Below are positions 17,619 to 19,576 of a stretch of 38,942 nucleotides of DNA, piece after piece; position 1 is the first letter of the stretch, and every line of letters begins with the position of its first letter. The DNA lies in NCBI GenBank assembly GCA_004322345.1, contig SCTQ01000215.1, positions 1-38,942 on the forward strand, written 5' to 3'. A model generated the notes under the pieces. That model saw only the letters and a list, made by a program, of their open reading frames with translations, made no database searches and was not told the DNA's origin. Source of the stretch: Aquabacterium sp. GTDB taxonomy: Bacteria; Pseudomonadota; Gammaproteobacteria; Burkholderiales; Burkholderiaceae_C. The translations under genes were made by a program, and so were the position numbers.

Positions 17619-17727
17619 GGAGCCGCCGGCAGCCGCAGGCTTGGTGGCATGACCTGAGGGGTAATCGACGCGTGCCGGTGCTTGCGCAACGATGCGGCCA
17701 TACCAACGCGAACGAAAGGAAAGCAAG

Positions 17728-17970
17728 ATGACCGGCTCCGACATCCTTCCCCTGGCAGTGGCCCTGCTGATCGGCATGGGCGCGATAGGCTCGTGCATCG
17801 GCGTGGCGATGTCGGGGATGAAGTTCCTCGAATCCTCGGCACGCCAGCCCGAGATGGTGGACACGCTGCAGAGCAAGTTCTTCCTGGTGGCCGGCGTCAC
17901 CGATGGCGCCTTCATCATCGCCACCGGCATCGGCCTGTGGTTCGCGACGGCGAATCCCTTCAAGGGTTGA
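17728..17970 (+). CDS. Orphan F-type ATP synthase c subunit-like proteolipid
   Basis: An 80-residue double-helix hairpin of the F0 c-subunit family. Helix 1 carries the glycine ladder (G16, G18, G21, G25, G30), the polar loop has ARQP (R39-Q40-P41) and helix 2 has the ion-binding carboxylate Asp 59 in VTDGAF. All core features of a ring-forming proton-type c subunit are intact. The C-terminus ANPFKG resembles the ANPF ending of betaproteobacterial AtpE. The ATG follows AAAGGAAAGC. No other ATPase gene is near: a terminator lies upstream and two beta-repeat protein genes lie downstream. A paralog of the operon-encoded atpE is likely. Whether it enters the ATP synthase ring or does another job cannot be told. 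Confidence 0.85.
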   Translation: MTGSDILPLAVALLIGMGAIGSCIGVAMSGMKFLESSARQPEMVDTLQSKFFLVAGVTDGAFIIATGIGLWFATANPFKG

Positions 17971-18039: not shown

Positions 18040-18846
18040 GTGCCGTCCTCAAGCAGCAGTCCCACCCCGGTCACCTGGCGCGACCTGCTGCTGTCGGCCC
18101 TGCTGCTCTTCCTGCTGCTGTGCGCGGCGACGGCCGGGGTGCTGTGGTGGGGCTGGCAGCACCTGTCGGCCCGCGTGCAACTCGGGCCGCAGCGGGCGAC
18201 GATCGAACTTCCGCAGGAGCTGGACGTGCGGGCTGCCGTCGACAACGCCGTGCGCGTGAAGATCGACCAGGAGCTGCCGGTGCGCGTGCCCATCCGGCAG
18301 ACGTTGAGCATTCCCATCACCGACCCCATCCCGCTGCAGGTCAGCGTGGACACCACGGTGCCCATCGACATCCAGGTGCCGGTCGAGCACGTGGTGCACA
18401 TCGACCAGAGCATCGACGTCGACGCCAAGGTGAAGACGCGTGTCCTGGGGATCCCGGTGACGGTGCCCATCCAGGGCAGGGTGCCGCTGAAGGCCGACGT
18501 GCCCATCAGTCTCGTGATCCCGGTCAAGCGCGAGTTGCCGGTCTCGTTGACGACACGGGCCAGCGTGCGGCTGGCCGAGCCTCTGAACCCGCGCATCGAC
18601 ACCGTGATCGAGGCCCGCATCCCCGTGCGCGAGACGCTGAGCCTGCCCGTCACGGCGCCGGTGGACGCGCGCCTGCGCTTCCCGCGCCAACAGGTGCAGG
18701 CGGGACTGGCGGCGATGCAGGTGGACCTGCCGCTGCATGAGGTGGAACTGCGCCGGCGCGATGCCTCGGCGCCCGGGGCCGTGACGACGCCGGTGGCCGG
18801 GTCTGCGGCATCGCCCGCTTCAAGGGCCGCGAGCGGTGCACGCTGA
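18040..18846 (+). CDS. Membrane-anchored Val/Ile/Pro beta-repeat protein, first of a tandem pair
   Basis: Not recognised as a named family. The 268-residue product has a short polar N-terminus, one membrane helix (about 16-39, no cleavage motif) and then about 170 residues of short alternating beta pattern. It is rich in steps such as VRVPI, SIPIT, IQVPV and VTVPI, spaced about 10-12 residues apart. The tail (about 240-268) is low-complexity Ala/Ser/Pro. Topology suggests a periplasmic repeat domain held by one helix. The start is a GTG at 18040 with no strong SD. It lies 69 bases after the c-subunit gene, and its last 11 bases overlap the next gene, a likely relative. Confidence 0.75.
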   Translation: MPSSSSSPTPVTWRDLLLSALLLFLLLCAATAGVLWWGWQHLSARVQLGPQRATIELPQELDVRAAVDNAVRVKIDQELPVRVPIRQTLSIPITDPIPLQVSVDTTVPIDIQVPVEHVVHIDQSIDVDAKVKTRVLGIPVTVPIQGRVPLKADVPISLVIPVKRELPVSLTTRASVRLAEPLNPRIDTVIEARIPVRETLSLPVTAPVDARLRFPRQQVQAGLAAMQVDLPLHEVELRRRDASAPGAVTTPVAGSAASPASRAASGAR

Positions 18847-19576
18847 GCCACCCCGCGCGCGCGGCGTGCGCCGCAGCCATGTCGCACTGGTCTACCTGCT
18901 CGCCGTTGCGCTGTGGGCCGCGCTGGCCGCTGCCGGCGCACTGGTGCTGTGGCGGGAATGGGGCAGCAGCATGGCCGTGCACGACCAGCCCATCCGCCTG
19001 CTGCTGCCCGAGGGGCTGACGGCCAGCGCCGAGATCTCGTCGCGCCTGCATTCGCGCGTGCAGGCCGCGCCGCGCCTGGTGCTGCCCATCGATCAATCGG
19101 TAAAGGTGGACCTGGGCCAGGAGCTGGCGGCGCGTGCCACCGTTCGCGTCGTCGTGCCCGTGGAGACCGACTTCCGGTTCCGCCAGGTCATCCCCGTGTC
19201 CACCGAGGTCTCGGCCGAGGTTCCCGTAGTGTCCTGGCTGCCGGCGATGAGCGTGAAGCTTCCGGTACACGTGGAGGTGCCGGTGGATCTCACCGTGCCC
19301 GTCCGCCTGCAGCTGCCGCTGGCGCTGGACCTGCGGGCCCGCGGCCGGCTGGTCGGGCCGATCACGGTGCCGGTGCGCACGAAGCTGGACATGCGCATTC
19401 CCATCAGTGCCGCGGTGGAGGGCGAGGTCACCAGCCGTGCCGACTTTCGCCTGCTGGCGCCGGTGCCGCCGATGGACCTGCGTCTGAGCCAGACGCGCAT
19501 CAGCCTGCCGCTGCGCGACGTGGACCTGTACGCGCCCCCACGTCCGCAGACCTGCTGCGAGGCTCCTTCGAACTAG
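18836..19576 (+). CDS. Membrane-anchored Val/Ile/Pro beta-repeat protein, second of a tandem pair
   Basis: Not recognised as a named family. The 246-residue product has the same plan as its upstream neighbour. An arginine-rich N-terminus leads into one membrane helix (about 17-39). A Val/Ile/Pro alternating beta region follows (about 75-230) with segments such as VRVVVPVE, VKLPVHVEVPVDL and ITVPVRTKLDMRIPI. Both proteins end the repeat zone with a similar phrase (QVDLPLHEVEL in the first, RISLPLRDVDL here), supporting an ancestral duplication. The start is a GTG at 18836 overlapping the previous stop. A late Cys-Cys pair lies at 240-241. Function unknown. Confidence 0.75.
   Translation: MHAEPPRARGVRRSHVALVYLLAVALWAALAAAGALVLWREWGSSMAVHDQPIRLLLPEGLTASAEISSRLHSRVQAAPRLVLPIDQSVKVDLGQELAARATVRVVVPVETDFRFRQVIPVSTEVSAEVPVVSWLPAMSVKLPVHVEVPVDLTVPVRLQLPLALDLRARGRLVGPITVPVRTKLDMRIPISAAVEGEVTSRADFRLLAPVPPMDLRLSQTRISLPLRDVDLYAPPRPQTCCEAPSN

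Follow-up and report, generated by a model that had tools for sequence, protein, structure and literature searches.

A tandem gene pair of Aquabacterium predicted to encode giant beta-hairpin proteins, a possible hydrophobic rail across the periplasm

Several described systems resemble in part the locus considered here. The AsmA-like bridges TamB, YhdP and YdbH have a long beta domain, a many-stranded groove, and the beta-pore-forming proteins lysenin, aerolysin and epsilon toxin have a long antiparallel hairpin. Other systems, AmeABCD and PP_0765/PP_0766, combine a DUF1302 protein with DUF1329 and an RND-type pump. AmeA of the AmeABCD monoterpene exporter is a DUF1302 protein predicted to reside in the outer membrane (PMC6394551), and PP_0765 is a DUF1302 protein required for growth on Tween20 (PMC10866462). 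Here, we describe a tandem pair of genes, A and B, from Aquabacterium sp. (GenBank assembly GCA_004322345.1, contig SCTQ01000215.1, positions 1 to 38,942 of the forward strand; this whole stretch of 38,942 nucleotides is referred to below as the window). Our reading, which taken as a whole is put forward tentatively, is that the two products may be membrane-anchored hairpins that bridge the periplasm as a hydrophobic rail.

The pair differs from TamB, YhdP and YdbH in that A and B match no Pfam AsmA/chorein model, in that each appears, by structure model and covariation, to form one two-stranded hairpin of ~160 residues instead of a many-stranded groove, and in that they are encoded as a tandem pair. 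The likeness to AmeABCD and PP_0765/PP_0766 lies in DUF1302, the usual neighbour of A/B in two families outside Aquabacterium; in contrast to those systems, A and B show no match to DUF1329 or to a pump family, and the pair in the window is not located beside DUF1302. With lysenin, aerolysin and epsilon toxin, A and B would have the long antiparallel hairpin in common.

Predicted architecture of proteins A and B

Gene A (18040..18846, forward strand) is an open reading frame (ORF) of 268 aa with a GTG start, predicted to encode a giant beta-hairpin protein with a single helix, and gene B (18836..19576, forward strand) is an ORF of 246 aa, also with a GTG start, that encodes its paralog. The positions of both ORFs and their 11-base overlap (18836..18846), as given in an initial annotation made from the nucleotide sequence, were confirmed. 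That annotation had also assigned one N-terminal helix to each protein, and a helix at residues 13-41 is present in both AlphaFold2 models, corresponding to 18076..18162 in A and 18872..18958 in B (block values of the predicted local distance difference test, pLDDT, of 84-93 and 91-98, respectively, over residues 11-40). Under the positive-inside rule, the Arg-rich N-terminus of B suggests an N-in topology.

Beyond the helix, the AlphaFold2 models, for which 30 A and 28 B sequences were aligned, contain long antiparallel strands, at residues 97-135/138-176 in A (i+j=273) and 97-129/138-170 in B (i+j=267). These hairpins were predicted before any covariation test was run. At modest confidence, they support the earlier proposal of an extended beta structure with one hydrophobic side, held at the inner membrane. 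That it takes the form of a groove or a beta helix of many short strands is not supported; model and covariation instead favour one very long two-stranded hairpin in each protein.

Each helix is followed by ~180 residues that switch between hydrophobic and polar almost without interruption. The alternation score of A (58.5 over residues 52-135) lies above the maximum of 43.5 found in 2000 shuffles, and that of B (54.0) above a maximum of 45.0; the alternation noted in the initial annotation thus exceeds all shuffles in both proteins. When the 407 genes of at least 100 aa called in the window and in 31 relative loci were ranked by this score, 56 of the top 58 belonged to the family, the remaining two being frames regarded as antisense mis-calls over family genes, and the best other gene scored 37.5. 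The Zhongshania pair is weaker against its own shuffles (A 49.5 versus a maximum of 50.5; B 47.5 versus 47.5). When 55 A sequences are aligned, the hydrophobic phase falls on odd positions at residues 53-135 and on even ones at 138-214, switching at the Leu136-Gly137 turn. This turn is the predicted tip of the A hairpin (18445..18450), with Gly137 present in 55/55 and Leu136 in 52/55 A sequences; it separates arm 1 (residues 53-135, 18196..18444) from arm 2 (residues 138-216, 18451..18687). In B, the predicted arms occupy residues ~53-132 (18992..19231) and ~135-213 (19238..19474) and are joined by a tip at residues 133-134 (Ser-Trp, 19232..19237), placed by the centre of the register and by the indels, nearly all of which fall at residues 130-140.

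Prolines lie almost exclusively in the polar phase (868/872). The interval of 10-12 residues reported for the VPV/VPI/IPI step needs correction, the prolines being spaced mostly 6-10 residues apart. A two-residue turn would put the polar phase at the non-hydrogen-bonded positions of the hairpin, and by hairpin geometry the backbone NH at proline positions should face away from the partner strand.

Charge covariation provides a test of these registers. The A set comprised 55 sequences, i.e., 28 of the 31 Aquabacterium sequences (L022, L024 and L032, being near-duplicates or truncated, were dropped) plus 27 from outside the genus, and the B set 53 sequences, 28 of the 30 from Aquabacterium and 25 others; the divergent A-like proteins L151 and L155 were set aside. 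Over the 55 A sequences, register 273 ranks first of 57 polar-phase registers both by charge complementarity and by charge covariance. Complementarity also places it first in the 28 Aquabacterium sequences alone (0.166 against 0.129 for the next register) and in the 27 non-Aquabacterium sequences alone (0.201 against 0.100), 25 of which were absent from the AlphaFold2 input. Covariance puts 273 first within each third of arm 1 (residues 54-79, 80-107 and 108-134, among 33, 38 and 35 registers, respectively), including the 54-79 third, a stretch of low certainty in the AlphaFold2 model, and only one of 1000 column permutations attains the covariance observed at 273. With clade means removed, the peaks remain at 273 in A (z 7.4, first of 113 registers) and at 267 in B (z 7.1, first of 109 registers), and within-clade row shuffles attained the observed value in 0/2000 cases for either protein. 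Overall, 273 and 267 each rank first of 105-113 registers and coincide with the AlphaFold2 registers. Correspondingly, covariance is negative in 27/31 in-register pairs of variable charge, compared with 604/1237 off-register pairs (Fisher p 1.4e-5).

The distribution of indels, like that of the prolines, agrees with a hairpin. Only 4/54 A sequences carry indels within residues 53-214, three of these at the tip, while a deletion at A215, just beyond the counted stretch, occurs in 13 sequences; in B, indels were found in 1/52 sequences at residues 53-129, in none at 141-207 and in 26/52 at the tip. The distance from Q51 to G137 is 86 residues in 51/55 A sequences. Such a scarcity of indels in the arms is expected where both strands must keep their register. 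The arms are ~80 residues each, and in A register 273 holds over the whole length. The register, the length and the nearly fixed arm length of the hairpin are therefore supported, and each protein is very probably, for the most part, one giant amphipathic two-stranded hairpin, as judged from the models together with charge covariation.

Several observations weigh against this picture. Confidence over the whole chain is low (A, pLDDT 66 and predicted template modelling score, pTM, 0.24; B, pLDDT 65 and pTM 0.31), falling to pLDDT 48-59 in the root thirds of the A arms (residues 51-80 and 201-220) and lying at 45-69 along the entire length of the B arms. Of the A and B sequences used for covariation, about half had also served as AlphaFold2 input, which leaves the independence of the two lines of evidence incomplete. 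Moreover, when DUF445 (20 sequences) served as a control family for the register scan, z rose to 5.3 in the best of 26 windows and had a median of 3.3, so the margin of A and B over this control is real but not unlimited. Contact between A and B is not supported by covariation in 50 paired genomes, where no charge covariation rose above noise (each strand pair gave a best z of 2.9-3.5 among its 216-228 registers).

An alternative in line with the groove of the initial annotation is a meander or solenoid of short strands, with units of 8-10 residues and 18 residues per pair; the modest confidence of the models speaks for it. In keeping with this, polar residues interrupt the hydrophobic face every 8-10 residues, giving an 18-residue period (autocorrelation 0.44, p 0.0006, in the first half and 0.27, p 0.02, in the second, from a scan of 13 lags in each half). 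Such a solenoid is nevertheless very unlikely, as one register spans the entire length of A, charge complementarity at offset 18 is negative (-0.029) and hardly any indels fall at the would-be turns. With a single hairpin in each protein, the 18-residue period may, as a guess, reflect the twist of packed ribbons.

Relatives, known families and distribution

A query with A finds B at E 6.7e-16 and 28% identity, and the two genes still lie side by side, in agreement with the earlier suggestion of a duplication; that A and B are paralogs arising in this way is supported by their sequences. Across 30 two-gene loci, the window included, the spacing between A and B, measured with start sites assigned by script, ranges from the 11-base overlap of the window to a 74-base gap.

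No named family had been recognised in the initial annotation, and none reached its curated cut-off here. In Pfam, the best match of A was YycC (E 0.0049, with 17.4 bits where the cut-off is 27) and B had no match; neither protein matched NCBIfam, or any PDB sequence at E up to 1. At E up to 1, neither protein was matched by the Pfam models of AsmA/chorein proteins, in a scan in which HMMER filters discard most matches above E ~0.1, and the Pfam models of MCE, LolA/DUF1329 and LptA/C-type proteins gave none at the same limit. These last models were likewise without a match for the Zhongshania pair and the Panacagrimonas A protein at E up to 0.01, and also for the Acinetobacter pair, which at E up to 0.1 gave nothing but weak names of unrelated families. 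For the Acinetobacter members, LEA_2 (E 0.025) and C2_Mug190_3rd (E 0.005) are sub-threshold, and the weak NCBIfam names were given no weight. Neither Pfam nor NCBIfam related A or B to a transporter, ATPase or type VI secretion system (T6SS) gene family. Judged on titles and the openings of abstracts, no publication listed in the literature searches was recognised as describing the A/B family. If the pair proves to be a lipid bridge, the function would be of a known kind and the structure new.

Fold searches with the models returned no useful match. The best match of B, a phi29 tail protein (E 8.3e-4), was disregarded, its TM-score being 0.11 and its root-mean-square deviation 57. Among the Foldseek/VIA neighbours of the A model, long hairpins such as those of lysenin and aerolysin predominate, and FlgH (E 6.6) and SpoIIIAG (E 9.1) are also present. 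Hairpins of this sort raise the alternative of a ring oligomer, in which several subunits would together form a periplasmic beta-barrel tube, as in the SpoIIIAG/FlgH rings and the beta-pore-forming proteins, but none of the neighbours is significant, and such a tube appears improbable.

The named relatives belong to the genus Aquabacterium, Zhongshania marina and a Panacagrimonas metagenome-assembled genome; Aquabacterium commune DSM 11901 is among the strains with the pair. A/B matches occur in 33/37 Aquabacterium genomes, that of the window included, with both copies in 32. A wider draw from the window's family gave 3/200 genomes, all members of the genus (one spurious match having been removed), a class-wide draw 2/369 (the window's own genome and G732), and no A/B was found in 24 genomes that represented 24 other families of the same order, with one genome per family. 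The raw counts of 4/200, 2/399 and 10/398 were too high and are corrected to 3, 1 and at least 2 (again the window's own genome and G732); the matches in G167, G418, G797, G724 and G655, judged from their ORFs, are frames over low-complexity repeats. Matches were found in 23/58 genomes of the Panacagrimonas family and in 2/21 of the Zhongshania family, and a draw from the Zhongshania order gave 12/371, with six strong tandem pairs and six weak single-gene matches. Six distant single-gene relatives (L168-L173), of ~260-300 aa, have one N-terminal helix and a similar alternating style. Three genomes (G1389, G1391 and G1400) carry three copies in a row, and L145, L146 and L147 show the tandem order A-A-B.

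In Acinetobacter baumannii (CP040041.1, 509782-511202; 8941-10361 in locus L084), a tandem pair lies between the gene for glyceraldehyde-3-phosphate dehydrogenase and obgE. The label 'MFS transporter' attached to the A gene in one A. baumannii record is not borne out by its sequence. Five more genomes had given candidate matches (G887, G961, G799, G666 and G770); an Acinetobacter query found none in the first three. Viral contigs contained no relative. In a phage collection, two matching records are named Acinetobacter phage MD-2021a (CAKLQF020000007.1, L163, and CAKLQH020000006.1); in the former, the pair is flanked by gapA, the gene for a GTP-binding factor (yhbZ) and proB, and the record looks like host chromosome.

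Gene neighbourhoods and a possible role in the envelope

DUF1302 is encoded directly upstream of the pair, on the same strand, in 23/29 loci outside Aquabacterium (two genomes supply two loci each), 21 of these from the Panacagrimonas family and two from that of Zhongshania. The membrane helix and the duplication are supported by computation, as is DUF1302 as a frequent neighbour in these two families. Within the same 29 loci, DUF445 occurs in 22, Abi_alpha (PF14337) in 23 and DUF4282 in 16. Abi_alpha and DUF445 recur by DUF1302 and the pair in L130-L150, L154, L069 and L070, which suggests a role in the envelope at these loci for DUF445 and for Abi_alpha, a family named after abortive infection. 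Abi_alpha was found in 1/42 Aquabacterium genomes.

The preferred reading is the following. Proteins A and B would each be anchored in the inner membrane and expose to the periplasm a single giant amphipathic antiparallel hairpin of ~80 residues per arm, with its root at the inner membrane and its tip directed toward the outer membrane. One face consists almost wholly of Val, Ile and Leu, and the opposite face is charged and studded with prolines. The location of the prolines, at positions whose NH should face outward from the partner strand, disfavours edge-to-edge growth, so that the ribbons would most likely stack with hydrophobic face against hydrophobic face, either A on B or in assemblies with more copies. 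Such an assembly would form an unbroken hydrophobic rail or rod between the inner and the outer membrane; lipids, fatty acids, hydrocarbons and the like could travel along it, with the outer-membrane barrel DUF1302 as a partner in some lineages, as gene order and the published work on DUF1302 suggest. The lone A-like gene beside an OMPP1/FadL gene also speaks for this reading.

At 0.33 nm per extended residue, an arm of ~80 residues would measure ~26 nm, close to the width of the periplasm; this figure presumes a fully extended ribbon. We infer the periplasmic location, the upright stance and the reach of the tip to the outer membrane; that the hairpins bridge the periplasm is probable. That the cargo is hydrophobic is less likely than not. 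Equally speculative is the fuller picture of an undescribed trans-envelope machine, in which paired ~26 nm hairpins would stand upright in the periplasm with their hydrophobic sides facing and form a rail from the inner membrane to a barrel such as DUF1302.

The gene neighbourhoods also provide arguments against this reading. DUF1302 is not an obligate partner. All but two of the 23 DUF1302-positive loci come from one family, and neither the pair of the window nor that of A. baumannii, with the neighbours given above, adjoins it. Only 12/41 Aquabacterium genomes encode DUF1302 at all (E 1e-10), and judged by contig and position these genes all lie away from the pair; the one in the genome of the window is on a separate contig. 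The six of 29 loci that lack it include the A. baumannii record and two contigs that start in or just before B, as well as L143, where a gene for a metal-dependent hydrolase takes its place, L151, where a lone A-like gene adjoins an OMPP1/FadL gene, and the G732 locus (L155, 7621-8592), where a diacylglycerol-kinase gene and a convergent LptF/LptG gene flank a single A-like gene. Four further strong loci (L164-L167) have no DUF1302 in the ~1.5 kb flank, two of them with DUF445 just upstream, and confidence in a hydrophobic cargo and in the reading as a whole was reduced, and that in a pillar (see below) raised, because of these four. As to the comparison with periplasmic lipid bridges made in the initial annotation, kinship in sequence with AsmA/TamB is not found in Pfam, and a similar role is conceivable by way of the DUF1302 neighbour, in the lineages that have it and not for the window.

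The absence of DUF1302 from most Aquabacterium genomes also speaks for an alternative, in which the hairpins would be a structural pillar, tether or sensor, holding or measuring the spacing of the membranes or reporting the state of the outer membrane inward, with no cargo. The near-invariant length of arm 1 is what a ruler would show, and the pair matches no transporter or ATPase family. However, for a spacer a hydrophobic face of 80 residues is more than required, except where it is buried between two ribbons, and the DUF1302 adjacency in 23/29 loci indicates transport in those lineages. A pillar of this kind is regarded as rather unlikely, although both it and the ring oligomer draw on the same observations as the rail.

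T6SS genes (hcp, tssF, tssG and tssH as read, at least two of the four being found) lie upstream of the pair in 23/29 Aquabacterium loci (L040-L068), which could place A and B within the secretion apparatus. None was noticed among the genes called around the window pair or annotated around the A. baumannii pair, the two surroundings inspected for them (the other lineages were not searched), and membership in this apparatus is hardly probable at all. In the window, an ORF of 92 aa resembling the ATP synthase c-subunit lies directly 5' of the pair (17692-17970, forward strand) and scores above the cut-off of the NCBIfam F0 c-subunit models; no other ATP synthase genes were seen beside it, though no search was aimed at them. 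On the other side of the pair, the opposite strand carries a short ORF and a putative dnaB.

If the predicted hairpin is correct, it would be a very simple way of crossing the periplasm, with one strand up and one down, a near-fixed length and a face that is hydrophobic all along. Alongside the many-stranded bridges and pumps there would then be a further architecture, in Aquabacterium, Zhongshania and Panacagrimonas and also in A. baumannii, and the cluster of DUF1302, DUF445 and Abi_alpha would gain a testable role in the envelope. Proteins as small as these would also lend themselves to direct tests of how hydrophobic molecules cross the periplasm.
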